Source: Pseudomonadota bacterium (GTDB taxonomy: Bacteria > Pseudomonadota > Gammaproteobacteria > Pseudomonadales > Moraxellaceae). Taken from it: a stretch of DNA of 35,453 nt. The notes under the pieces are model-generated. The model was not told the origin of the DNA. It searched no databases and worked only from the letters and a program-made list of their open reading frames with translations. The translations under genes were made by a program, and so were the position numbers. The stretch spans positions 1 through 35,453 of the forward strand of contig JAJZHP010000014.1 of NCBI GenBank assembly GCA_021804355.1. Direction: 5' to 3'. Each line of letters begins with the position of its first letter. The first letter of the stretch is position 1. This document shows positions 1 to 12,417 of this stretch, piece by piece.

Positions 1-404
1 TGGGACAGGCCATAGCTGTCCCAGACCTTGTAATGCTGGCCGTTGAAGTAGACCTGACCATGCTTCCACTGGGCTGCACCGGTATTGACTGGGATCCAGC
101 CCAGTGAACGGTGAACACCCGAAGACTTGCGCCATGACAGCTTGGATTTCTTAAATTGTTTTCGCCGTGTCACATATTCAGCCGCAACCACTTGGACGGT
201 TTGTGAATGAAGTCCCAGTTCCTTGGAAGCGCCTGTGGTGTAGGCGTGCATATCGAAGGCGGAAAGGAATTTGCCTCGTTCCCGTATGCTACGACTGGAC
301 AACTCATTCAGGTAATTCCAGACAAAGTTCACCGCCCTTGCTTGTGCTGCAAGAACCTTGGCGTGTTTGTCACGCACTCGAACTTTTAGGGTCTTGGTTG
401 CCAA
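1..404 (-). CDS. tnpB: TnpB (IS200/IS605 OrfB), N-terminal part, runs off the window
   Basis: This is the N-terminal ~134 residues of an RNA-guided nuclease/accessory protein TnpB of the IS200/IS605 (IS1341-type) family. The minus-strand frame is open from a TTG at 404-402 to the window edge. The TTG is preceded by AAGAGGA with a spacing of about 8 bases, and no ATG is available nearby. Family hallmarks seen are FVWNYLNEL, the block around SAFDMHAYTTGASKELGLHS followed by QTVQ, SLGWIPVN, and VYFNGQHYKVWDS, the usual wedge/REC region. The RuvC catalytic part lies outside the window. No TnpA (Y1 transposase) is seen next to it, so movement would need a TnpA elsewhere. Whether the gene is intact cannot be judged. 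Confidence 0.85.
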   Translation of the reverse strand, partial: MATKTLKVRVRDKHAKVLAAQARAVNFVWNYLNELSSRSIRERGKFLSAFDMHAYTTGASKELGLHSQTVQVVAAEYVTRRKQFKKSKLSWRKSSGVHRSLGWIPVNTGAAQWKHGQVYFNGQHYKVWDSYGLS

Positions 405-471
405 CGTATCAATCCTCTTGATACTGTTATTATAGGCAGCTCAAAACAAGCAGTCAACGACATGCTTATAT

Positions 472-491
472 CCTCGCCATGAATGGCGGGG
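472..491. repeat. IS200/IS605 left-end hairpin (subterminal palindrome)
   Basis: A compact hairpin pairs CCTCGCCA with TGGCGGGG (one G-T pair) around a TGAA loop, 68 bases upstream of the tnpB start. It is followed by TTTTACGC. Imperfect CCCCGCC-type hairpins just before tnpB are the subterminal structures that TnpA recognises at the left end of this family. The exact element boundary and its flanking TAM cannot be fixed, because no empty site is available for comparison. Confidence 0.6.
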
Positions 492-507
492 TTTTACGCA
501 CAAACTG

Positions 508-529
508 ATAAAAATAGCGTTTGCTATTT
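508..529 (-). terminator. AT-rich hairpin with T-run, weak candidate terminator
   Basis: Read on the minus strand, a perfect 7-bp stem (AAATAGC / GCTATTT) with loop AAAC is followed by more Ts and TATC. It lies downstream of the NfeD-like gene and upstream of tnpB, where a terminator would separate the two. The stem is A/T-rich, so termination would be weak. It could equally belong to the left end of the IS element. Confidence 0.35.
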
Positions 530-621
530 AAAAAGTTCGTTCGCAAAGCCCACCTTTCTGTCTTTTCAACGATAGGAACAGACTAGGAGGGCCATGCAAC
601 GAAGCCCTCAGCGTGTCCCAA

Positions 622-888
622 CTAGGTATTGACCAAAACCTCTACTCGCAGCACTTCCTCCTCAACACCTATAATACGCACACGTTCACCTGCCTTCGCA
701 CAACCGTCAGGGATGACGTACCGATGTTCCCCCATGACCAAGGTAAACTCTCCGTGTGTATTGGCTCGACCCACCACAAAAACCCTGCCTACCACGTCCT
801 GCCTAGCTTGCTGCAACATTGACTGCATATGAATTTCACCTAAATAAGACAATGTTTCTTTCAACTCATCGTCAGGATACTTCTGCAC
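622..888 (-). CDS. Small NfeD-like OB-fold domain protein
   Basis: An 88-residue protein whose second half reads like the C-terminal OB-fold domain of NfeD proteins: VVGRVFVVGRA, then LVMGEHRYVIPDG, then GERVRIIGVEEEVLRVEV. The N-terminal ~25 residues are a charged helix. There is no transmembrane segment, unlike full NfeD proteins, and no stomatin/SPFH partner gene is visible. The start is GTG at 888 with AGGGA about 8 bases upstream. An alternative ATG at 828 also has a good AGGTGA site and would give 68 residues. It could be a free-standing OB-fold protein or the tail of a decayed NfeD gene; an in-frame TAG directly precedes the GTG. The function is unknown. Confidence 0.55.
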   Translation of the reverse strand: MQKYPDDELKETLSYLGEIHMQSMLQQARQDVVGRVFVVGRANTHGEFTLVMGEHRYVIPDGCAKAGERVRIIGVEEEVLRVEVLVNT

Positions 889-1205
889 CTAGTATTTCCC
901 TGCCGTGAATCAGAGCGACCTAGCAAGGCATCATACACCCGGAGATGAAAACATACCTGCACATAGCCGCAATACCGTAACCAGCTAACTGTCATTTTAG
1001 TTCCAGAGAAATGGCTAGAAATAGATGGGTGCTCAGATCTATTGCTTCAAAACGGGAACGATGACTATCTCCGCTTCTCTATTCCCTTGAAGAACAGGAA
1101 TACCTTATTCTCCAAAAGTCTCAGGGAGGTTGTAAATCTTACGTTAAAATCTAAGTAGCCTATACCTGATCGGCATTCCCCTTAAACACCCATAGCGATG
1201 CCCTC
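889..1205. other. Intergenic stretch without a recognisable gene
   Basis: These 317 bases separate the divergent NfeD-like and MATE genes. I find no open frame with protein-like content, no RNA gene and no strong hairpin. Promoters for both genes should lie here, but no box pair is convincing enough to place. Confidence 0.6.
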
Positions 1206-2576
1206 ATGAAGCCACGTCCATCTTCTATCAAGGATCTGCTCGGTCTTGCTTGGCCCATATATATTGCGCAGATGGCTATGATAGCTAACAGTATCATCGA
1301 TACCGTCATGGCTGGCAGGCTGTCTGCATTTGATTTAGCGGCTGTGGGCATAGCAGCCTCTATACAGACAACGCTGCTCATGTCCTTGACGGGCATTCTA
1401 CTGGCACTTCCTCCTCTCATTGCCCACCTCCAGGGCTCAGGACAGATGCAGGCCATCGGGCGTGAGATTCACCAAAGCCTATGGATTTCCCTAGCACTCA
1501 GTGTACTGGGTATAGTGTTGTTGCGCTGCCCCGGTCCATTCATTCAACTGTCACATCTGCAACCTGTCGTAGAACTCAAGGTACGTGCCTACCTTGATGC
1601 TTCATCATGGGGTGTGCCTGCCATGTTGCTGTTCAGAGTCTTCGGTGGCCTTTTTACGGGCATTGCAGAGCCCCAGATCGTCATGCACCTTACCCTATTA
1701 ACCCTGGCACTTAAATTCCCCATGAACGCCCTATTCATGTACGGATGGCTGCACCAGCCTGCCTTGGGTGCCGCTGGCTGTGCCTGGGCTACATCCCTGC
1801 TTAATTGGCTGGTCGCTCTTGTTGCTTGGAGCTGGTGCCTCACTCGCCCCCGGTATGCCGTATTCATGCTTTCACGGCGTCTGTCTCCACCCGACTGGGC
1901 GGCTATCCTGATATTTCTGCGTATTGGTCTGCCCATAGCCCTGACTTTCATCGCCGATCTGACAGCCTTTACTTTCATGGCCTTGTTCATTGCCCGGCTA
2001 GGTCCGATCATGTCCGGAGCACACCAGATCGCGGCTAACTTGGTCGTCATTGCCTTCATGTTGCCTCTATCACTGGGCAATGCCGCTACGGTTCTGGTAG
2101 GAAAAGCCATGGGAGCCAACCAGCCACTTCTGGCTAGGAATATCTGTCAACGCGCTCTTGGCCTGGGAATTCTGCTAGCCCTAGCCGTTAGCCTCACGCT
2201 CTGGAGCTGGGCACCACAGATCGCAGCCCTCTATAGCTCAGATGAGCAAGTCAGAGCGGCAGCCATCCCGCTGATTATGATGGTGGGTTGGTATCATCTG
2301 GCCGATGCCCTGCAAGCAGTAACAGTCAATGCTCTGCGGGGTTACCAGCGTACTGCCATACCCATGTTGATCTATAGCCTGGGGTTATGGGGATTAGGTC
2401 TGGGCGGAGGGTTTGTGCTGGGATTAACCCCCTGGTTAGGGCCAGCTCGCGGCGCAGCCGGGTTTTGGCTAGCTGCCGTGATTAGTCTGACTCTGGTAGG
2501 ATGCTTGATGACCATCTATCTTCATCATATCAGTCAGAAAGAAATCTCTCATCGTCCGCTAGATCACCCATGTTGA
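1206..2576 (+). CDS. MATE-family multidrug/sodium or proton antiporter (NorM-like)
   Basis: A 456-residue inner-membrane protein with twelve predicted hydrophobic segments in two similar halves, the normal size and layout of MATE (NorM/DinF superfamily) exporters. These expel cationic drugs, dyes and metabolites using Na+ or H+ gradients. Supporting blocks are the first-helix region LAWPIYIAQMAMIANSIIDTVMAG, which is split here only by description, the second-half GAHQIAANLVVIAFMLPLSLG with the typical small-residue/NAATVLVGKAMGA continuation, and LQAVTVNALRGYQ. No Shine-Dalgarno sequence is evident before the ATG; GTG or TTG alternatives are not better. It stands alone on the plus strand with no regulator beside it. 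The transported substrate cannot be predicted. Confidence 0.9.
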   Translation: MKPRPSSIKDLLGLAWPIYIAQMAMIANSIIDTVMAGRLSAFDLAAVGIAASIQTTLLMSLTGILLALPPLIAHLQGSGQMQAIGREIHQSLWISLALSVLGIVLLRCPGPFIQLSHLQPVVELKVRAYLDASSWGVPAMLLFRVFGGLFTGIAEPQIVMHLTLLTLALKFPMNALFMYGWLHQPALGAAGCAWATSLLNWLVALVAWSWCLTRPRYAVFMLSRRLSPPDWAAILIFLRIGLPIALTFIADLTAFTFMALFIARLGPIMSGAHQIAANLVVIAFMLPLSLGNAATVLVGKAMGANQPLLARNICQRALGLGILLALAVSLTLWSWAPQIAALYSSDEQVRAAAIPLIMMVGWYHLADALQAVTVNALRGYQRTAIPMLIYSLGLWGLGLGGGFVLGLTPWLGPARGAAGFWLAAVISLTLVGCLMTIYLHHISQKEISHRPLDHPC

Positions 2577-2912
2577 TAGCAGATACACTATTTAGCTGGT
2601 CCGAGAACTGTTTGCATTTATACAGCATGACGTTTACCGACATGGGCGAGGTCTGATTCGTTCCCTTCTTAGAGGCAATACGCCTAGGCATCCGGTCAAT
2701 AGCGCACGTGATACTTTCCCACCTCATGGGTACAGATGCTTGGAACAACTTGCCTGACGTGTATCAGAAGAAGATGTACGAGAATGCCATCGACGAGGGC
2801 CGCAAGGCCGGACGCGCGAGGCCTTGACACCGGAACAGCGGATCTATGCCGACCTGCAGGCGGAACTAAGTAGACACCGATGGAAGAAATGCCAGGGAGG
2901 ACATGCTAGACA
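2577..2912. other. Intergenic stretch holding a gene relic
   Basis: These 336 bases lie between the convergent MATE and DUF4325 genes. The first ~145 bases hold nothing recognisable. The second half contains a short, frameshifted, protein-like reading frame described separately. Confidence 0.5.
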
Positions 2913-2919
2913 TCAGTGA
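2726..2919 (+). pseudogene. Frameshifted gene relic, family not recognised
   Basis: From the ATG at 2726 the frame reads MGTDAWNNLPDVYQKKMYEN and goes on through AIDEGRKAGRA to a TGA at 2825. In another frame the text continues at once as EALTPEQRIYADLQAEL and runs on to a TGA at 2917-2919. The two pieces look like one charged, helical protein broken by a small indel. The segment is visibly richer in GC than the surrounding intergenic DNA, which suggests imported DNA. It overlaps the end of the convergent DUF4325 gene by 7 bases. I cannot name its family. Confidence 0.4.
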
Positions 2920-3221
2920 GCATGAGCCTTTATGTACTGCTCACAGCGATCAGAGACCACGAATCTTATTATTGCACGCACATTGTCAGAACAAGTCTTA
3001 AAAACGATCCTGGACAGAAGTTCGGGGCCCTGTCGCAAAATCATGCCGCCCACTAGTTCATCTATGAATGACTGAGTGACCTCAACCGAAGAAAAATCGA
3101 AGACGACCTGCTGCCCCTGCGCAAGTATCTCCTCTGCGTTATGGCGCAACGGCAACGCAGACGCACGAGCCCCGATGAAATGCCCATCAGCATATTCGCT
3201 TATGGTAATCTGAGTCCGCAT
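2913..3221 (-). CDS. STAS-like DUF4325 protein
   Basis: A 102-residue protein matching the STAS-like DUF4325 pattern: a strand-rich N-terminus, then VVFDFSSVEVTQSFIDELVGGMI, named here by its key residues DFS, SF, DE and GG, followed by alternating helices and strands ending in IRFVV. DUF4325 proteins resemble anti-sigma antagonists and are commonly found with GHKL ATPases, as here. The start is ATG at 3221, with GGGAG about 9 bases upstream. It is the last gene of a minus-strand operon, 66 bases after the ATPase gene. Its molecular role is not known; a protein-protein switch with the upstream ATPase is an inference. Confidence 0.7.
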   Translation of the reverse strand: MRTQITISEYADGHFIGARASALPLRHNAEEILAQGQQVVFDFSSVEVTQSFIDELVGGMILRQGPELLSRIVFKTCSDNVRAIIRFVVSDRCEQYIKAHAH

Positions 3222-3287
3222 GGCTGAAATTCTCCCTGTCTGCTGAATATAGCTGAAGATATCTGGAAGTGGAAGCGGCGCTCTTTT

Positions 3288-3857
3288 TTACTCAAACTGG
3301 ATTCCTGGGATATCCTGATTATCTCGTGGGAAGTATTTGCGAAAATCGACAGACGAGAGAAGATCCCGTTTAAGCTCCACAGAAACGGCAACACCTTGCC
3401 ACAAACCCCCATCATCGAGGTAGTTACCGCTTTCTTCATCCGAACGGTACACGGCGTCCCCGCTAACTATGATAAGTCGCCCTTTCGTTCCATCAGCGAT
3501 ACGGCGCGTTGTTGTTAAACCAAGACCTTCGTTCACAGAATCAGCGAAACCCAGAGCAACTTCCCTGTTGCAACTTACCTTTTCCAAAAGGGACGCTTTG
3601 ATGGCATCCAGATGAGAGTTCAAGCCCAAATTCTTTTGGTTTTTAAGTGTTTCCCAGATGCCGCACCCATTATCAGCCACAGCCAAGACAGCGGTATCAG
3701 CCTTGGGGTAGTACTGACAAGCGACCCAGACATTAGCGTGTACATACCCGTGCCGGCGAGAATGCGTCAGGGCATTCTCAAGCAACTCATTGAGTGCATA
3801 CCGGATGGGCTCGATTATCTTATCCTGTGGGCTTCGCCCGCTTACATCTTCAGGCAT
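3288..3857 (-). CDS. GHKL/HATPase_c ATP-binding protein (anti-sigma-factor-kinase-like)
   Basis: A 189-residue stand-alone histidine-kinase-type ATPase domain. The Bergerat fold motifs are present: N-box NELLEN (residues 23-28), G1 box DNGCG (62-66) and G2 box GLGL (111-114). There is no phosphoacceptor-histidine domain and no membrane segment, which resembles SpoIIAB/RsbW-type serine kinases more than a sensor kinase. The ATG at 3857 overlaps the upstream STAS gene by 16 bases and has a strong AGGGGGAG site about 9 bases away, so the two are translationally coupled. The three-gene order STAS, ATPase, STAS-like DUF4325 suggests a partner-switching module. The target is not encoded next to it. 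Confidence 0.75.
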   Translation of the reverse strand: MPEDVSGRSPQDKIIEPIRYALNELLENALTHSRRHGYVHANVWVACQYYPKADTAVLAVADNGCGIWETLKNQKNLGLNSHLDAIKASLLEKVSCNREVALGFADSVNEGLGLTTTRRIADGTKGRLIIVSGDAVYRSDEESGNYLDDGGLWQGVAVSVELKRDLLSSVDFRKYFPRDNQDIPGIQFE

Positions 3858-4279
3858 GTTGTCAGCTCCCCCTCGCGAAAAAAACCGAGTAATGCTCTAG
3901 CCAACCGACTGGATGTACCTTCGACGGAACTAGGATTGCTCAGCATCGTGAGCTCAACTAGCGAGTTGCTCCTATCGTGACGCCGTTGATGAGAGGACTT
4001 TTGATTAATAAACACAACGCCAGGGAATCCATCCATCCTCTGAAGGTATTCTACAGCAGTGGTGATCGCGCCCGAGACCTCAACGCTACGTTTATCCCTT
4101 TGTTGGATCATATGTAGCGTAGATCCGAGCATGGCAATACCTAATGGGTCCACGAAAACAAGGGAACTCGCATCTATCTTCAAGTCACCTTCGGAAAACA
4201 ACATGGATTGGCAGGTATCTACAACCATACCTGGGTTCTTAGCGCTGAGGTATCGCGGAAAAAGGACTTTGCTGTTCAA
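3842..4279 (-). CDS. STAS-domain protein (anti-sigma-antagonist-like)
   Basis: A 145-residue protein. Residues ~1-90 form a STAS-type alpha/beta domain: LKIDASSLVFVDPLGIAM, then a helix, then RSVEVSG and a second helix. The position that normally carries the phosphorylated Ser/Thr in D-S/T-x-G reads D44-P-L-G47, so the usual phosphoacceptor is absent. Residues ~100-145 form a basic/helical tail ending in ARALLGFFREGE. The start is TTG at 4279, preceded by GGAGGGG with ~7-base spacing; no ATG fits. The stop overlaps the ATPase start. It is the first clearly recognisable gene of the operon. Binding to the ATPase encoded next is likely by family analogy. Confidence 0.65.
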   Translation of the reverse strand: MNSKVLFPRYLSAKNPGMVVDTCQSMLFSEGDLKIDASSLVFVDPLGIAMLGSTLHMIQQRDKRSVEVSGAITTAVEYLQRMDGFPGVVFINQKSSHQRRHDRSNSLVELTMLSNPSSVEGTSSRLARALLGFFREGELTTCLKM

Positions 4280-4326
4280 CGGTACACCCCTCCATGGGCT
4301 TGAGGCAGAATCAGCCTCACCAATAG

Positions 4327-4548
4327 CTACGGTATATATCTATCAGCGTTGAGCACATGGATCTCTTCAAGCATGACGTAGACATCGGATATCCCATCAC
4401 AAACAGGGCAGTTATCTCTGTCAAATGTCGTGTGTGAATCCCACGACTCAGGCTTGATCCATAGAATGCGGGCATAGCATGACAATCGCGTAACGTATTC
4501 TTGACATTCAATAGTTACGCCATAAAGCAAAAAAGCCATGTTTTTCAT
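4327..4548 (-). CDS. Small hypothetical protein with a CPVC motif
   Basis: A 73-residue reading frame with protein-like composition and four cysteines, two of them in C47-P-V-C50 near the centre. It lies 47 bases upstream of the STAS gene on the same strand and may be the first gene of that operon. Its possible ATGs (4548 and 4539) fall inside the rho-independent terminator of tRNA-Ser, and no ribosome binding site is evident. The gene may therefore be cut off at its 5' end by whatever event placed this segment beside the tRNA. A CxxC knuckle could bind zinc or be redox active; the function is unknown. Confidence 0.4.
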   Translation of the reverse strand: MKNMAFLLYGVTIECQEYVTRLSCYARILWIKPESWDSHTTFDRDNCPVCDGISDVYVMLEEIHVLNADRYIP

Positions 4549-4554
4549 GGCTTT
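4528..4554 (-). terminator. Rho-independent terminator of tRNA-Ser
   Basis: On the minus strand a perfect 9-bp stem (AAAGCCATG / CATGGCTTT) with an AAAAA loop runs into a stretch of six Ts. It begins about 45 bases after the CCA end of tRNA-Ser, the expected place for its terminator. Confidence 0.8.
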
Positions 4555-4598
4555 GCGTGTTTATTTTGGATCTTTTTGGACTTCTTTGAACGAACAAC

Positions 4599-4689
4599 TG
4601 GCGGAGAGGGTGGGATTTGAACCCACGGTAGGGGAGACCCCTACTTCGGATTTCGAGTCCGACCCGTTCAGCCGCTCCGGCACCTCTCC
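4599..4689 (-). tRNA. tRNA-Ser(CGA)
   Basis: A 91-base type II tRNA. The acceptor GGAGAGG pairs with CCTCTCC, followed by discriminator G and an encoded CCA. The anticodon stem TCGGA/TCCGA encloses the loop CTCGAAA, giving anticodon CGA, which reads UCG. A long variable arm (GTAGGGG...CCCCTAC) and the T-arm GTGGG-TTCAAAT-CCCAC are as expected for serine tRNAs. A promoter-like pair lies directly upstream and a terminator downstream, so it looks like a separate transcription unit. Confidence 0.95.
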
Positions 4690-4703
4690 GCACGAGGGCA
4701 GCA

Positions 4704-4732
4704 AAGATACATGCTCTGCTGCCTTTAAACAA
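4704..4732 (-). promoter_or_regulatory. Candidate sigma-70 promoter of tRNA-Ser
   Basis: Minus strand TTGTTT, a 17-base spacer and TATCTT sit 14 bases before the tRNA 5' end. The spacing is ideal and the boxes are moderate matches. A GCAGCA/TGCTGC stem overlaps the same stretch and might instead end the upstream lipoprotein transcript. Confidence 0.45.
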
Positions 4733-4741
4733 GCCTTTTGG

Positions 4742-4954
4742 CTACAGAGGAACGTCATCCACGGTATCTGCAGCCGTCTGAATGGCTGAGTTACCCGTAT
4801 TACCTGCTACCGGAATGATGGAAACAATAGCCCCGACAAGACGCATAGGCACCGTCACCAGCTTGGTCAGCACGCAACCATTCAGGCTAAGGGCCAGCAA
4901 GGCCATGACGCCACCACGAACCAACCAACGTTCAACTTGTTTGCTCTTCATCAT
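4742..4954 (-). CDS. Small lipoprotein (DUF6726-like)
   Basis: A 70-residue predicted lipoprotein. A basic N-terminus and one hydrophobic stretch end in a lipobox LNGC with the lipidated cysteine at C27. The mature part is about 44 residues with a hydrophobic, glycine-containing middle. The start ATG at 4954 is immediately followed by a second ATG; GAGGGA lies about 7 bases upstream. Small lipoproteins of this kind are often found next to purC in pseudomonad-like genomes, and here purC is 48 bases upstream on the same strand. The function is unknown; residue +2 is valine, so no Asp retention signal, and outer-membrane sorting is likely. Confidence 0.7.
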   Translation of the reverse strand: MMKSKQVERWLVRGGVMALLALSLNGCVLTKLVTVPMRLVGAIVSIIPVAGNTGNSAIQTAADTVDDVPL

Positions 4955-5002
4955 GACTCATTCCCTCTATGTTTGATGACCCGAAAAATTCTTCCAAGTT
5001 TT

Positions 5003-5716
5003 TCAATCAAACTTGATACCTAAACGATGACCCACTTCTTCGTAGGCCTCAACTACCCCGCCTAAACCTTGACGGAAGCGATCCTTGTCCAGCTTTTTAC
5101 GGGTTGCCTTATCCCAGAGGCGGCAACCGTCAGGCGAAAACTCATCACCCAGCAAGATCTCACCATGAAACAACCCAAATTCCAGCTTGAAGTCAACTAG
5201 CATCATGCCCGCTGCATCAAACATGTTAGCTAAAACATCATTGACTTGCATGGATAGCGCTTGCATACGAACCAGTTGCTCATGCGTTGCCCATCCAAAG
5301 GCTAGTGCATGAGCTTCATTGATCATAGGATCTCCTAAGGCATCACTCTTAAGAAACAGCTCAAAGGTGGGGGGATGCAAAGGCAAACCCTCTTCAACAC
5401 CTAAACGTTTGACCAGCGACCCCGCCGCATAGTTGCGCACCACACACTCAACAGGAATCATCTGCAGACGTCTAACCAACGACTCGGTATCTGACAACTG
5501 TTTTACCTGGTGAGTAGCTATACCGGCCTGCTCCAAACGCTGCATGATGTATGTGTTAAAAATATTATTGACCTTACCCTTACGCGCCAACTGTTCAAGT
5601 TTTTGACCATTAAACGCCGAGGTGTCATCCCTGAACTCAATAATGAGGTAGTCAGAGTCTGGGGTCGCAAATACAGATTTTGCTTTGCCGGTATACAGCA
5701 GTTCTCGCTTTTCCAC
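5003..5716 (-). CDS. purC: Phosphoribosylaminoimidazole-succinocarboxamide synthase (SAICAR synthetase)
   Basis: Joins CAIR and aspartate with ATP in step 7 of IMP synthesis in the cytoplasm. The first strands read [12 protein letters not shown]; the family block [20 protein letters not shown] (substrate-binding signature) is intact; DFKLEFG and [13 protein letters not shown] follow. I place the start at GTG 5716, not at an upstream in-frame ATG (5731). The GTG has AGGAGAG 8 bases upstream, and the resulting 237 residues begin (V/M)EKREL, the same length as the E. coli enzyme. The ribosome site lies in the last codons of bamC, so purC is translated with the dapA-bamC mRNA. Confidence 0.97.
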
Positions 5717-5727
5717 AGTAGCTCTCC

Positions 5728-6375
5728 TCAATCGGCGGACTTGGGCCAGGCCGCCATAATTTTTTGCAACAAAACTCGACTGCTATCAGCAGGCGCCATG
5801 CTATCTGCATTCTTTTGTACAGCCAGCTGCCAGGAATCCACGCCACGCACTAACTTCAGCTGGCCTTGATCATTAGCCTGACCTTTCTTACTCTTACTCT
5901 TTTTGCCCGAAACCTGCCCTAAGTAAACTAGGGCAAGCTGACGATTGCGGTCACTGGTGTGTATATGAGCCAGAGTCAGAACATTCTGCAACTCATCCCA
6001 AATCTGGTCAAAACCTGCACCGCTGATCGACAGTATGGGAAAACCATTACCATCCTCCGTCATACCCAGCACCCACTTGAAACTACCCAGTTTGGTTCCT
6101 GATCCAGAACCGTTGAGCTTGAGTGGAATCGGAGGCGGAACCGCATCATTCTCGGTACTTACCCACGTGGTTTTGGCGGTGGCACCCACGGGAGCCTTGA
6201 TATCAGGAATGGGGTAAAGTTCCTGAGCTGGCCGCATCGTAATTCCTGGCGGCACCACTATGGGTTTTGCTGACTCAGCGGTACGATAAGGGTCATCGTG
6301 TCTTAGCCAATGACAACCCTGCAACATAACCAGAGCCAGCCCTACGACGACATAACACGATAAGCATTGCTTCAC
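5728..6375 (-). CDS. bamC: BamC-like outer-membrane lipoprotein (short form)
   Basis: A 215-residue lipoprotein with lipobox LQGC (C21), encoded between dapA and purC, the usual place of bamC (nlpB/dapX). BamC is a subunit of the BAM complex that inserts beta-barrel proteins into the outer membrane. The flexible N-terminal segment keeps the conserved pattern [11 protein letters not shown]. After it there is room for only one helix-grip domain (about residues 115-210), whereas enterobacterial and pseudomonad forms are about 340-370 residues with two. The start is GTG at 6375, whose GTGA overlaps the dapA stop, indicating translational coupling. The identity rests on position, lipobox and the N-terminal motif; the C-terminal domain is divergent. 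Confidence 0.8.
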
Positions 6376-7250
6376 AAAAGACCCGCCTGTTGTAATGCTT
6401 TAGCCACCACCGGCTGTGCTGATTCAGACAACCAGGTCAGTGGCAGGCGGATACCTGTATCAATACGCCCCATGGCATGCAAAGCCCATTTGACCGGGAT
6501 AGGATTGGATTCCACAAACAAATCACGATGCAGCGCACGCAAAGGTGCATCCCAACGCTCGACACCTTTAATATCCCCTAACATAGCTGCCTTACATAGC
6601 TCTGCCATGGCATGCGGAGCGACATTGGCTGTTACCGAGATATTGCCCTGGGCTCCCTGCAACATCAGTTCACCCGCTGTGGCATCATCACCCGAATAAA
6701 CTGCCATACGTCCCGCCAAAGCGTGGATAAGCTCAGTCCCTCGTCGTATATTGCCTGTAGCATCCTTAATGCCGACAATATGAGGTACTCCCGCCAGACG
6801 CAAGACCGATTCATTGGTCATATCCACCCCTGTGCGGCCAGGTACATTGTACAAAATCTGCGCAACCGGAACCCGTTCAGCAATGGCACAATAGTGTCTC
6901 ACTAGTCCCTCCTGGGTCGGCTTATTGTAATAAGGGGTCACCAACAAACAGGCATCGACGTTAAGTTTGGCAGCCGACTCAGTCAATTCTATAGCCTCCC
7001 GGGTGCTATTAGCTCCGGTGCCGGCAATCACTTTGATCTGGCCTGCAGCAGCTTCCATGACCAAAGCAATGACACGCAGATGCTCAACAACATCCAGCGT
7101 TGCCGATTCGCCCGTCGTGCCCACGGCCACAATAGCATCCGTGCCCTCATGAACATGCCAGGCGACCAGTTGGCGTAACGCTTCCTCATCCAAGCTACCA
7201 TCAGCCTGCATGGGCGTTACTAATGCCACCATACTGCCTCGGATCATCAA
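6372..7250 (-). CDS. dapA: 4-Hydroxy-tetrahydrodipicolinate synthase
   Basis: A 292-residue TIM-barrel aldolase that condenses pyruvate with aspartate semialdehyde, the first committed step of lysine/diaminopimelate synthesis. Visible motifs are GTTGES (44-49), YNVPGRTG with catalytic Y134, and GIKDATGN with the Schiff-base lysine K162; length and spacing match E. coli DapA. The ATG at 7250 is preceded by GGAG with ~8-base spacing. It heads the minus-strand run dapA-bamC-purC and is divergent from the copper ATPase gene, sharing a 144-base upstream region with it. Confidence 0.98.
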   Translation of the reverse strand: MMIRGSMVALVTPMQADGSLDEEALRQLVAWHVHEGTDAIVAVGTTGESATLDVVEHLRVIALVMEAAAGQIKVIAGTGANSTREAIELTESAAKLNVDACLLVTPYYNKPTQEGLVRHYCAIAERVPVAQILYNVPGRTGVDMTNESVLRLAGVPHIVGIKDATGNIRRGTELIHALAGRMAVYSGDDATAGELMLQGAQGNISVTANVAPHAMAELCKAAMLGDIKGVERWDAPLRALHRDLFVESNPIPVKWALHAMGRIDTGIRLPLTWLSESAQPVVAKALQQAGLL

Positions 7251-7343
7251 ACCTGCTCCAGTTTCCTTAAAGATGTAATCTTAGCGGTCGCAGCCTTGCC
7301 AAACAAGCACAGACTGATCAGGATCAGGATATCTTGCAACAAG

Positions 7344-7373
7344 TTGATGGATGCTAGATTAAACTTCTAGCAT
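7344..7373 (+). promoter_or_regulatory. Perfect dyad in a MerR/CueR-like promoter layout
   Basis: A perfect 8-bp inverted repeat (ATGCTAGA, 7 bases, TCTAGCAT; 7351-7373) begins one base after a TTGATG -35-like box (7344-7349). The next plausible -10 (around CATTTT, 7371-7376) would leave a long spacer of about 20 bases containing the dyad. This is the layout of MerR-family activators such as CueR at copA promoters. The sequence is not the enterobacterial CueR box, and no merR gene is nearby. The short T-run after it means a hairpin in the leader is an alternative. Confidence 0.45.
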
Positions 7374-7394
7374 TTTAGACACGGGAGATTACCG

Positions 7395-9620
7395 ATGAGT
7401 CACCGTACCTATCTAGCCCTGAACGGCCTGCACTGCGCAAGCTGCGTACAGCGTGTGCAAAGCGCATTGGCTGCTGTTCCTGGTGTTGAACAAGCGGTCG
7501 TTAACCTAGCAGACCGTAGCGCTGAAGTGCGCGGCGTGGCTGATGAGACAGCTCTGTTATCTGCTGTTGTGAAAACCGGATACCAAGCATGGGTGGTCCA
7601 TGACCCTCGCGAAGCGCTGCTGACACAAACACGAGAGGCGCGTACTGAGTTTCTGACCAAGTTAGCGCGTACAGCTCTAGGTTTGATATTTGGTTTGGGC
7701 TTGATGTTACGAATGCCGCATATCCCTGATATCCCCCTGATCTGGAATGAACAGCGATTTGACTGGTTACTTTTGACCCTAATTACCGGAACCGTGATGC
7801 TGCTAGGTGGATGGCACTTCTACCGTGGTGCCTGGAAAGCGATGCGCTCAGGCTCCACCACCATGGATACCCTGATCAGTCTGGGAACATTGTCCGCTTA
7901 TCTATACTCCTTGACCGTAGTCCTTTTCGCCAATGCGTTTCCGGCTGACGCCAGACACCTCTACCTGGAAGCGGCCGTCATGATCATTGCCCTGGTCAAT
8001 CTGGGCTCGCTTTTGGAAACCCAGGCTCGACGCAATGCTCAGGCAGCCATACGTGAATTAATCGCCCTACAACCCGATGAAGCTACCGTACTCAATGAGT
8101 CCGGCGAACAATTGATGGCCATCAGCCTGATTCGCCCGGGCGATCATCTGCTGATTCGTCCCGGCGAACGTATCCCAGTTGATGGCCAGGTACTCTCAGG
8201 GCAGTTGCATGTGGATGAATCCATGCTGACGGGTGAATATCGTCCTGTTTTGAAACAAAAAGACAGTACCTTGCATGCCGGTAGCCAGAATCTGGCAGGT
8301 TCAGCGGAAGTCGAGGTGTCTCATATCGGTGAAGAAACGGCGCTCGCTGAAATTATCCGCAGGGTGCGTGAAGCGCAAAATGCCCGCCCTCCTATCGCCA
8401 ACCAGGTTGACCGGATTGCTTCTATCTTTGTTCCTGCCGTCATGGCGATTGCGTTGTTGACGCTGTTAACCTGGCTAATTTTTGGACCATCCCCTCATCT
8501 CACCCATGCTTTGGTTGCTACCGTCTCGGTACTAATAATCGCCTGCCCCTGCGCTCTAGGCTTGGCGGTTCCCATGTCCATCATGATGGCCTCCAACCTA
8601 GCCTCCCGCCATGGCATCCTGATTCGTGACGGCGTAGCCTTACAGATGGCCAGTCACCTGACTACCTTGATTTTTGATAAAACCGGTACGCTGACCGAGG
8701 GACGAGGCTCCGTCAACCATGTGGAAATCTGTAATGGCTATGATGAGCCCCAGCTGCTGGCATGGGCGGCAGCTGTTGAACACAACTCTGAACATGCCTT
8801 TGCTCAGGCCATCCTGCGCCGCGCTCGCCAGACGGGGGTGACTGTGCCTACCTGCAGTCATTTTCTGTCGGTAGCAGGAAAAGGGATACAGGGTATGGTC
8901 GATGGCCACCTTATCGTCATCGGCAATGAAGCCATGTTGCAGGATTCCAAGGTAATCCTGGATCCTGTTAAGCATTTACTTATGCAATGGACCCAAGCTG
9001 GCATCAGCCCCTTGCTGATGGCCGTAGACGGACAGCTGGCAGGAGCATTTGGTATCGCTGACACTATTCGTCCTGATGCGCGCAGAGCCTTAGGACGCCT
9101 ACGTAAGCTAGGCATACAAACCATGTTGCTCAGTGGCGATCACCAAGGACCTACCGCGAGCTTGGCCGCAGAGCTAGGTATCGAGACTTACTGGGGTGGC
9201 ATGCAGCCGCAACAAAAACTGCAGGTTATTCATGAGCAACAACTACGAGGCGAAATCGTCGGCATGGTTGGCGACGGCATCAATGACGCTCCGGCCCTGG
9301 CTGCTGCCGACGTAGGTATTGCCCTGGGGCGAGGCACCGATGTAGCCATGGCGGCCAGTGGCATTACTCTGACCAATGACCATCTTGACAACCTATTCCT
9401 GGCCGTACGCATTTCACGAGCCACCCTGCGCAATATCCGCCAGAATCTTTTGGCGGCATTCATCTATAACATTATTGCCATACCACTGGCGGCCGGAGCC
9501 TTGTATCCCTGGACCGGTTGGCAACTCAACCCGATGATTGCCGCTGCTGCCATGGCGGCCTCATCACTGACCGTGGTACTCAACGCCGGACGACTCCGAT
9601 TTCTGCGACTTAAACGGTGA
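7395..9620 (+). CDS. copA: Copper-translocating P1B-type ATPase
   Basis: A 741-residue inner-membrane ATPase that probably exports Cu(I). Order of parts: one N-terminal heavy-metal-associated domain with C14-A-S-C17; transmembrane helices; actuator loop with MLTGEY; the ion-binding helix with C384-P-C386; phosphorylation site D428-KTGTLTEG; nucleotide domain; [10 protein letters not shown]; and a last transmembrane pair with [15 protein letters not shown] (the Met-Ser region of Cu+ pumps). Two details are odd: the HP dipeptide of the nucleotide domain reads H467-A468, and the TGE motif is followed by Tyr. GGGAGA precedes the ATG. The dsbD-type gene follows on the same strand. FixI/CcoI (cytochrome oxidase assembly) is an alternative, but no cco genes are present. 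Confidence 0.92.
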
Positions 9621-9688
9621 TAGTTACCTAGCCAAATGATAAGGCACTATGGGATTATGCCATGCCATTTTTTGATGGAAGTCATTTT

Positions 9689-11356
9689 ATGCGCCTACTG
9701 CGACATCTAGCCCAGACTCTAAGCATCGTGATACTGACGTTGCCTGCCGTCTACGCCCAAAACATCCTGAGCGCAGCTCAAGCCTTTACCGTAACCACAA
9801 CGGCCCAACCCGGGCATCTGCTGGTCCATTTTCACATTGCCGATGGGTGTTATTTGTACCAGAAACGCATGAGTTTCACACCTCTGGATCATACCCTGAG
9901 TATGGGCAATCCCAAGTTCATGTTACCTCCTGACACGAAAGATGACCCCGAATTTGGCGTGGTACAAGTTTATCACCACGATGTGGATGTCGATCTTCCA
10001 CTACAGGGTCAAGGCAAGCTGCATCTCAGTTGGCAAGGTTGTAATGAAAAAGTAGGCATTTGTTACCCACCCCAAACGCAGGATATCAAGGTCAACAGCA
10101 AGCTAATGCCTCCCGTGAGTACCCGAAGCATGGAAAAACTGCTGCCTTTCTACCTAGGTGGTTTGGCCATGACACTCACACCCTGTGTCTGGCCCATGAT
10201 ACCCATCCTGTCGGGCATCATTGCCCGACAGCATAGCCGTCGGCGGCGAGACAGCATTTTATTATCGTTGAGTTATGTCCTAGGCACGGCCAGCAGCTAT
10301 GCCTTGCTCGGAGGCGTGTTTGCCTGGCTAGGACATAGCATCAATCTGGCAGCCTGGTTTCAGCAACCCTTCTGGATTATCACGCTAGCGATTATCTTTG
10401 TAGTGCTATCCCTGAGTTTGTTTGATATTTATGAATTACGCCTCCCCAGCGCGCTCAGTAATCGCCTCGACCACTTAAGCCGTCACCAAACAGCGGGCAG
10501 CTTGACAGGCACCTTTCTTATGGGTGGATTGGCTGCTCTCGTCGTCTCCCCCTGTATCTCTGCCCCCCTGGCTGGGGCCATGATCTTTGTATCCTCAATA
10601 GGTAGCGTCTTGTGGGGTACCGTTCTGCTGTTTGTCTTGGGGCTAGGGCTAGGAACCCCCCTGATGCTCTTGGGTATCACACAGGCACAAATCCTGCCCC
10701 GCTCAGGCGCTTGGATGCAAGGAGTCAAGGCCGCTTTTGGGGTTGCCATGCTGGCAACCTCCGTATACCTGCTGTCCCGTATACTTCCAGCTCCTATCAC
10801 AGGGCTGTTAGCAGGCGCCCTCGCCCTAGGTTCGGGTGTAGCGCTGGGAGGATTAGAACCCGCTGCTTACGGCTGGCCCAGGACTCTGAAAGCCTTAGGA
10901 CTGATATTAATGCTCGCGGGTGGAATCTGGATAACGCAGTCCTTACAGGGAACAAGATCTCCTGACCTGGCTTCAACCACGACACCGGCATCACCCACCC
11001 GACAGAATATGATCATGGTACATAATCCACAGGAACTTGATCAGGCTTTGCATGAGGCTTTAGGACACCCGGTCATGCTGGATTTATGGGCAAGCTGGTG
11101 TATCAGCTGTCAACACCTTGAACAGGATGTGCTAGATACCCCGGTACTGCAACAACGCCTGGCAGGCTTGAAAATGATACGTCTTGATGTCAGTGCCAGC
11201 GGCCCTGGCAGTGACGCCTTGTTGCAACGCTTTGCTCTTCCGGGGCCACCCGCCCTGCTGTTTCTGGACAGTCAAGGTCATGAAGTGGCGCCCCCCTTGG
11301 TCGGTGAAATCACCCAACAGGATATCGAGCAAGTGCTCACAAACCAACATTGGTGA
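9689..11356 (+). CDS. dsbD: Thiol:disulfide interchange protein DsbD
   Basis: A 555-residue inner-membrane protein that passes electrons from cytoplasmic thioredoxin to periplasmic thiol proteins. All three domains are present: a signal peptide ending near PAVYA; a periplasmic N-terminal domain with the CNEKVGICYPP motif; a membrane core with the paired cysteines in LTPCVWP and VVSPCIS; and a C-terminal thioredoxin domain with W-C471-I-S-C474. The N-terminal cysteines are separated by six residues where most DsbD proteins have five. I prefer the ATG at 9689, which has GGAAG 8 bases upstream and puts arginines before the signal helix; an in-frame ATG lies at 9662. It follows the copper ATPase gene by 68 bases, consistent with keeping periplasmic thiols reduced under copper. 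Confidence 0.93.
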   Translation: MRLLRHLAQTLSIVILTLPAVYAQNILSAAQAFTVTTTAQPGHLLVHFHIADGCYLYQKRMSFTPLDHTLSMGNPKFMLPPDTKDDPEFGVVQVYHHDVDVDLPLQGQGKLHLSWQGCNEKVGICYPPQTQDIKVNSKLMPPVSTRSMEKLLPFYLGGLAMTLTPCVWPMIPILSGIIARQHSRRRRDSILLSLSYVLGTASSYALLGGVFAWLGHSINLAAWFQQPFWIITLAIIFVVLSLSLFDIYELRLPSALSNRLDHLSRHQTAGSLTGTFLMGGLAALVVSPCISAPLAGAMIFVSSIGSVLWGTVLLFVLGLGLGTPLMLLGITQAQILPRSGAWMQGVKAAFGVAMLATSVYLLSRILPAPITGLLAGALALGSGVALGGLEPAAYGWPRTLKALGLILMLAGGIWITQSLQGTRSPDLASTTTPASPTRQNMIMVHNPQELDQALHEALGHPVMLDLWASWCISCQHLEQDVLDTPVLQQRLAGLKMIRLDVSASGPGSDALLQRFALPGPPALLFLDSQGHEVAPPLVGEITQQDIEQVLTNQHW

Positions 11357-11367
11357 ACCTCCCGTTG

Positions 11368-12417
11368 CTAAAGCGCCAGATGGTAATTTCTACGCAAGGC
11401 AGCAGGCAGACGATCAACGGCTTCAGCCTTGATGAGCGGTTGAGGGTCAGCTGAGCTTAGCGTATGCCAGTAAAGCAGGTTTTCATCAGGAAACTTTTGT
11501 TGATACCGTAGCGCTGCCGCAAAGGACTTAGCCGTATAAGTTTCATCCAGGGAAAGTCCGGTCACAGCCTGAAAATGCTGACTTGCTTTTTTCCCGGCGT
11601 CGGTAGCCCTACCATAGCCTGCACCATACTCCTCTTCATCCAAGAAAAAATGAACTTCAGGCAAGTGGATATGGGACTGCTGCAAATAACGCCTCAACCG
11701 ATTGACCTGAGTTTGTACCGTAGCTGCGGTACAAACTTGCCAGGGTCCTAAATAGGCAGGAGCTACCCGCACTCCTGTTATCCGGGTAGGCCATCCTAGA
11801 AGAGCTATCCCAGCAGCCAGTCCTGCCAGCGTTGCTGCTGAACCCACAGCGACCACCATATGATCAGGCCGAGGCAACGTACCGGCCTCGACCTGATCAG
11901 CTAACTCAAAGGCTGCGTTAATAAATGCCAATCCCCCCTCAACACACGATCCTCCTGCAAACAAACGCATAGCCTGGGGATGGCGCAAAGGAGCCTCAAG
12001 GGCATAGGATAAGACCGTTGCTGCTAGGCTACGCCGATACCATATTTCTGCGCCCAGGGAAGCCATTAGCTGCAAACTGAGCGCAACAGACGGGGTAGAT
12101 GGTTGATCAAAAAGTATGAGAGTCGTCGCTAGGTCGGCCTCGCGCGCGAAGTAGGCCGTGGCCACACCATGATGGGTACCGGCCGCACCAAAAGTGACAA
12201 GACGTTTGACACCTTGATCCCGCGCGCGCCCTAGAATAAGTTCAAGTTTTCTGACCTTGTTGCCACCATAAACAGCATGTGTCAGATCATCGCGTTTGAT
12301 CCAGAGGCTGCTGGCTGCACAGCCGCTGATTTCTTTAACAGGGGTATAGCCTTTCAACAAAGGCCAACGTTTTAGCCTTCCCCTTAGCACAGGATAGGCA
12401 GATTCAAGACTATACAT
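11368..12417 (-). CDS. PLP-dependent enzyme, D-cysteine desulfhydrase / ACC deaminase family
   Basis: A 349-residue fold-type II PLP enzyme. The cofactor lysine is K54 in YGGNKVRKLE, the signature of the family that includes D-cysteine desulfhydrase (DcyD) and 1-aminocyclopropane-1-carboxylate deaminase. KRDDLTHAVYGG, FGAAGTHHGVATA and the glycine-rich phosphate loop VGSAATLAGLAAG support it. At the substrate-sensing position the segment reads GAAGTHHG where ACC deaminases usually have SNH, so ACC deaminase activity is unlikely. D-cysteine or another D-amino acid is a guess. ATG 12417 fits the GGGGGTG site better than the GTG at 12420. The gene is convergent with dsbD (11-base gap) and 80 bases downstream of the GMC gene. 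Confidence 0.8.
   Translation of the reverse strand: MYSLESAYPVLRGRLKRWPLLKGYTPVKEISGCAASSLWIKRDDLTHAVYGGNKVRKLELILGRARDQGVKRLVTFGAAGTHHGVATAYFAREADLATTLILFDQPSTPSVALSLQLMASLGAEIWYRRSLAATVLSYALEAPLRHPQAMRLFAGGSCVEGGLAFINAAFELADQVEAGTLPRPDHMVVAVGSAATLAGLAAGIALLGWPTRITGVRVAPAYLGPWQVCTAATVQTQVNRLRRYLQQSHIHLPEVHFFLDEEEYGAGYGRATDAGKKASQHFQAVTGLSLDETYTAKSFAAALRYQQKFPDENLLYWHTLSSADPQPLIKAEAVDRLPAALRRNYHLAL

Follow-up and report, generated by a model that had tools for sequence, protein, structure and literature searches.

Three minus-strand ORFs lie close to one end of the window, by which we mean the whole stretch of 35,453 nucleotides that was analyzed, and they are transcribed in the order STAS, GHKL, DUF4325 (Table 1). 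Each has a plausible ribosome-binding site as judged by eye, in agreement with the first-pass annotation, and the domain identities given there also hold. Those of the DUF4325 protein (PF14213, 1.8e-11) and of the ATPase (HATPase_c, 9.9e-8) are certain; the STAS assignment is weak in Pfam (STAS_2, 0.0086, below the cut-off) and gains its firmness from homology with that domain in relatives. By eye, the ORFs of window positions 1-12000 include no recognizable sigma factor or phosphatase. A gene relic separates the DUF4325 gene from a transporter-like gene which, read by eye, is on the other strand. The reported tRNA and TnpB element are both present: the tRNA is tRNA-Ser(CGA), the only match in an Rfam scan, and the TnpB-like ORF, which is cut by the contig end, has 70.0% DNA identity to an annotated transposase.

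Table 1. Positions of the kinase and partner genes and of adjoining features in the window.
Feature	Positions	Strand	Remarks
5' half of kinase gene, N-terminal STAS domain	3842..4279	-	145 aa; motif F-V-D-P-L-G
3' half of kinase gene, GHKL domain	3288..3857	-	189 aa; Bergerat-motif residues present
Partner protein, DUF4325, STAS-like	2913..3221	-	102 aa; TQSF motif, no wHTH
Run of seven T (coding strand), junction of both kinase frames	3878..3884	-	-1 relation
tRNA-Ser(CGA)	4599..4689	-	border of variable segment
Terminator-like hairpin behind tRNA	4532..4554	-	contains ATG of supposed CPVC gene
Gene relic	2577..2912		between transporter-like gene and DUF4325 gene

Comparison with relatives indicates that the STAS and GHKL ATPase ORFs are two halves of one kinase gene. 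The 304-aa phage profile PHROG 3364 is matched by the first ORF at positions 6-116 (E=0.0002) and by the second at positions 142-290 (E=2.5e-31), and a Pseudomonas conjugative plasmid encodes both parts in a single protein of 343 aa, after which comes a STAS-like protein of 102 aa. A search with the kinase peptides only gave 24 close relatives, 13 from genome contigs and 11 from viral contigs. STAS and GHKL matches fall in a single ORF in 23 of the 24, and a DUF4325 gene comes next after the kinase in 23 of the 24, the pattern that an examination of DUF4325 neighborhoods for STAS and HATPase_c genes had been proposed to look for; the two exceptions, L100 and L088, are both cut by contig ends. 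Among the 23 one-ORF kinases, L088 is cut inside the GHKL part, L087 is frameshifted further on (8001-8950) and L089 has an in-frame deletion of much of the GHKL part (7995-8708). The lesions in L087 and L089 are independent and leave the partner gene open; possibly such losses of the kinase recur and spare the partner. Two more distant copies, G439 and G204, carry internal stops. Because the relatives encode one protein, a coupling of two separate genes was rejected: the 16-base overlap of the first two ORFs exists, but not as a junction between genes. As proposed earlier, the module is of the partner-switching type, a kinase plus a STAS substrate, but its genes number two and not three.

A small CPVC ORF had been put forward as a possible leader of the operon. 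Searches of Pfam, PADLOC, NCBIfam and PHROGs gave it no family match at E ≤ 1, and it lacks relatives both in the viral contigs and among the ORFs of the collected loci (best match outside the window, E=4.0). These missing matches and relatives, together with an ATG that lies within the terminator-like hairpin, led us to leave it out of the module. Taken alone the hairpin is no more than suggestive, since such hairpins occur 1.3 times per shuffled region.

The kinase-partner pair occupies a variable site bordered by the tRNA, with the truncated TnpB-like gene. In 11 of 20 loci from relatives, purC is found no more than 1.5 kb from tRNA-Ser(CGA). Past the tRNA, each of the eight longer stretches containing it looked different by eye, which is why the site is considered variable, and in one of these an integrase-like ORF adjoins the tRNA (by eye). 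An integron-type integrase-like ORF was seen by eye about 2 kb past the same tRNA-Ser in a relative (L158:4248-5273). Direct repeats that could serve as attachment sites, sought in window positions 1-5100, comprised two weak families, with no clear attachment repeat.

The kinase family has a conserved ATP site: the E, N, H and D residues and the glycines are 100% conserved (one glycine 97%) in the 68-70 of 72 rows that have a residue there. The conservation alignments left out 27 loci, mostly duplicates; L088 has the same length and match as L031. The L077 kinase was modeled with AlphaFold2 (22 rows, mean pLDDT 83.3, pTM 0.86). The GHKL part of the model matched SpoIIAB best (1til_E; Z 13.4, rmsd 2.8, 138 aligned), and for the N-terminal part the matches were STAS domains, those of sulfate transporters as well as those of anti-sigma-factor antagonists (Z about 10, with about 90 residues aligned). 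SpoIIAB was also the top match of a modeled fused wHTH-GHKL-DUF4325 protein (18 rows, pLDDT 85.2, pTM 0.80). No VapS or CapS chain was among the best 50 Foldseek and VIA-align rows, an absence that excludes nothing. The GHKL half also matches PADLOC DrmA (1e-6, profile positions 133-273 of 1750); a DISARM assignment was rejected, and the match is taken as shared GHKL homology.

The STAS domain of the kinase has Pro at the usual place of the phosphorylated Ser in 97% of 36 sequences. Two residues before its D-P, an aromatic residue is present in 21 of 21 sequences (F 18, Y 3). Judged by position only, this residue may be the equivalent of the single-stranded-DNA-contacting W68 of CapK and F54 of VapK. 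The window kinase gave no HTH family match, its STAS match beginning at residue 5 of the first ORF, and no HTH was found in P0005, the one close relative scanned in full.

The partner, by comparison, has a conserved serine. Its TQSF motif is invariant in all 24 close partner proteins, and in a wider set 38 of 41 separate DUF4325 proteins have Ser at that place. The three exceptions are L069, L059, which is a short second copy, and L039, where Ser is one residue earlier (TSAF), a row that may be an alignment artefact. Because Ser stands in the partner and Pro in the STAS domain of the kinase, the DUF4325 protein is the candidate substrate, and the STAS domain inside the kinase is not. The original description of two STAS-type proteins therefore had to be given up, since the N-terminal STAS domain belongs to the kinase and adds no second substrate.

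The window partner has DUF4325 alone above the cut-off and no wHTH, and none of the 24 aligned partner proteins extends more than about 25 residues beyond its STAS-like part. When a profile of these proteins was compared with PDB sequences, the best match was Escherichia VapS (9z7o_A, E=0.46) and the third was RsbS (E=1.5), neither of which is significant alone. Both weak matches place Ser on Ser, that with VapS only with a one-residue insertion. The phosphorylated residues of RsbS and SpoIIAA are Ser59 and Ser58, respectively. Neither plasmids nor viral contigs gave a match to a VapS fragment. The aligned Ser of VapS has chain number 66, which equals S48 of PMC13373217 if the chain carries an 18-residue tag (lengths 134 and 116).

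Single proteins that unite wHTH, GHKL and DUF4325 domains share the last two domains with the pair, but in one polypeptide; PHROG 5816 is a related fused profile. Fused GHKL-DUF4325 proteins occur in L045, L047 and L052 (scanned, with wHTH), in most of L047-L076 and in 18 of L101-L124. The place of the partner's Ser is taken by Ala or Gly in 26 of 27 proteins fusing GHKL and DUF4325. The same holds for 18 of 18 aligned viral fused proteins, a set recovered with a kinase pattern plus the pattern GQAFADE, which favors Ala; the 18 come from 24 loci, and L104 and L105 are 99% alike. The fused GHKL-DUF4325 proteins with Ala or Gly are possibly a DNA-binding form no longer dependent on phosphorylation.

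DUF4325 was found in 54 of 369 genomes of the class, and the family profile matched in 17 of the 369, the source genome included; the window's GHKL half matched in 1 of 97 genomes searched, its own. The earlier idea of an accessory module recurring in several genera was borne out, and the recurrence extends to phages and plasmids and is in part beside defense genes. In a Marinitoga phage a hypothetical gene comes after the pair, and after that a serine integrase. In the type I restriction operons of L079, L082 and L084, the kinase start overlaps the HsdS stop by 1, 4 and 4 bases, respectively, the HsdS ORFs having been assigned by us from neighbor family matches. An HsdR gene lies just upstream of the pair in L077, and in L084 the pair precedes, as read by eye, a gene for an AAA-type ATPase and another small gene.

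Neighbors were tallied for 23 of the 24 close loci (L088 excluded) as ORFs of 90 aa or more within 3 kb. We kept 93 of 127 such ORFs, the others being dropped by eye as antisense or spurious-looking, and the associations have no matched control. Pfam matches among the 93 comprised five phage integrases, four D12-class methylases, three C5 methylases, three N6_Mtase and three Methylase_S proteins, three impB/mucB/samB proteins, three S24 peptidases and two SRAP proteins. The corresponding PADLOC tally gave methyltransferase and specificity-subunit models and mad2/mad5 (three members each), which we took to be the same restriction genes. Some relatives adjoin integrases, DNA methylases or genes of the SOS type; several, L078 and L086 among them, have ordinary-looking neighbors.

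Some more distant relatives lie beside candidate or known defense genes; these loci were chosen by eye, so that no rate can be given. At L036 (7367-9064), a single protein combines STAS, GHKL and DUF4325, kinase and partner being fused. It comes directly after the candidate defense genes PDC-M07A (an AAA ATPase) and PDC-M07B, in a locus that also encodes DpdE- and DrmMI-like proteins, and it has no relative in the viral contigs. L039 (6836-8614) has a kinase, a STAS partner and a PIN gene in a row, as in vapKSC, near an AriAB-like protein and a type III methyltransferase. Four STAS-GHKL kinases were seen without an adjacent detected DUF4325 gene (L007:3566-4570, L009:3950-4906, L030:7840-8937 and L032:7914-8903), and a HisKA match was obtained for the protein that comes after the kinase in L030.

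The nearest known systems are CapKS and VapKSC, whose theme is DNA damage, not a sigma factor. As described in the available portions of one paper, these switches turn on bacterial antiviral genes after DNA damage (PMC13373217, 2026). CapK is an HTH-STAS-GHKL protein paired with CapS (STAS-wHTH), VapK is a STAS-GHKL protein with VapS (STAS) and the PIN toxin VapC, and one kinase-STAS logic thus has two outputs, a repressor and an RNase toxin (PMC13373217). For VapKSC, the same portions give the signal of CapKS plus toxin release as the authors' proposal, with the signal not directly tested, and they count 88 of 443 capKS pairs that have restriction-modification genes immediately upstream (PMC13373217). 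The window pair resembles VapKSC in its accessory nature, in the STAS-GHKL order of the kinase (here in two frames) and in its small STAS partner with a conserved serine; it differs in that it has no PIN gene and its kinase is split by a frameshift. The partner motif also differs, being TQSF(I/V/M)D in place of the S-P-F-F-N of VapS.

With CapKS the pair shares the kinase-STAS pairing, the conserved phosphorylatable Ser of the partner and, for some pairs, a place downstream of restriction genes (three behind hsdS and one behind hsdR among the 24). Unlike CapK, the window kinase has no HTH before its STAS domain, and its partner has no C-terminal wHTH and so is no repressor of the CapS type. 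Nor is there an immune operon beside the window pair, where the relic and then the transporter-like gene were read by eye. In the library searched by the CapKS and VapKSC names, PMC13373217 was the sole relevant paper. DUF4325 was named in only two papers of the library searched, in one of them in a prophage gene table. No such pair was seen in the available text of PMC13092281, where HATPase is named in a figure legend and the word STAS does not appear, or in that of PMC12137116, which deals with a GHKL-Shedu protein.

We consider it probable, at roughly two chances in three, that the pair is a mobile two-gene kinase-STAS switch of the CapK/CapS and VapK/VapS kind that has neither known output part. 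This reading builds on what can be observed directly, namely the domain make-up and gene order, the conservation of the ATP site and of the serine, the carriage by phages and plasmids, and the neighborhood. By analogy with CapKS and VapKSC, the STAS-GHKL protein would be silent until it senses single-stranded DNA arising from DNA damage or phage attack. Once active, it would phosphorylate the serine of TQSF in the minimal STAS-like DUF4325 protein, and phosphorylation would change what that protein binds. The kinase activity, the single-stranded DNA signal and the phosphorylation are all carried over from those systems. The target is probably a protein, because the partner has no recognizable DNA-binding domain, and in some relatives it is possibly the type I restriction enzyme of the same operon. 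A more specific proposal, which we offer as tentative, is a third output mode of the CapK/VapK family, responsive to single-stranded DNA, in which a partner with neither a DNA-binding domain nor a toxin switches a protein target, in some lineages the type I restriction enzyme made from the same operon and in temperate phages a prophage function close to the integrase. Counting against the main reading, no output gene recurs next to the pair, several relatives have ordinary-looking neighbors, the sequence link of the partner to VapS is below significance, and the window kinase is split.

A classical anti-sigma switch, in which the kinase would be the anti-sigma kinase and the DUF4325 protein the antagonist of a system whose sigma factor is encoded elsewhere in the genome, is an improbable alternative. 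As in SpoIIAB/SpoIIAA, RsbW/RsbV and RsbT/RsbS, a GHKL kinase fold is combined with a STAS-like substrate candidate having a conserved Ser. In fold, the GHKL part corresponds to SpoIIAB and the STAS part to anti-sigma-factor antagonists, the Ser motif of the partner weakly resembles that of RsbS, and on an Alicyclobacillus plasmid a sigma-like HTH gene stands just upstream of the pair. However, no sigma factor family was among the families matched by two or more of the 93 neighbors, and the ties of the group are to phages, plasmids and restriction operons instead. SpoIIAB and RsbW, moreover, have no STAS domain of their own, whereas the window-type kinase has an N-terminal one with Pro for Ser. 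Still less probable is a vapKSC operon that lost its PIN toxin gene, of which the downstream relic would be the remnant. The kinase has the VapK architecture, and in one distant relative, L039, the PIN gene does directly follow the partner gene; but PIN (PF01850, E ≤ 1e-6) was found in at most one of the 93 neighbors of 23 close relatives, a search that could miss a divergent PIN, and such near-absence would make the loss older than the whole group. The window contig has no PF01850 match, the six PIN matches of this genome all being on other contigs, and no PIN-like reading was seen by eye in the relic.

Within the preferred reading of a mobile kinase-STAS switch, the window copy itself calls for caution. 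A frameshift breaks up its kinase gene and probably impairs this copy, except if the two parts are translated on their own and come together again, or if the shift is an error of sequencing. The frames stand in a -1 relation, and the seven-T run is their meeting point. Across the junction, the distance between conserved motifs, compared by eye, is 110 nt in the window versus 111 nt in 8 of 14 relatives and 102 or 108 nt in the remaining six. As the cause of the frameshift we lean to a lesion or a sequencing error, a functional split being the other possibility. The functional alternative, which appears unlikely, holds that one gene yields two products, either as separate proteins from their own starts or with a full-length fraction made by -1 slippage at T_TTT_TTT. 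The run does stand in frame as a slippery heptamer, the second half could start independently at an ATG that has an SD-like GGGGGAG, and both halves are free of stops and retain the ATP-site residues. Yet no unusually stable RNA structure lies downstream of the run (z = 0.79), giving no structured frameshift stimulator, and none of the 23 relatives has a T-run of five or more in the linker (one has five A). An SD-like sequence and start occur at the same place in 4 of 23 relatives that are not split there. In addition, the GHKL half has lost conserved positions, a sign of divergence or relaxed constraint: of 58-61 strongly conserved positions it retains 47-48, compared with 54-58 in every one of 20 relatives. 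For the STAS half the figure is 13-17 of 14-18, similar to that of the relatives (13-14). These counts used equal reference sets of 19 relatives, a position being called conserved if 18 or more were alike.

Taken as a group, these loci keep a kinase and a phosphorylatable partner that come without a known output, and phages, plasmids and restriction operons carry them. Candidates for what the partner protein binds, placed where they can be tested directly, are HsdR, HsdM and HsdS and prophage regulators. The switch could link DNA damage to the control of restriction, or of prophages, without transcription, and DUF4325 thereby gains a testable role.
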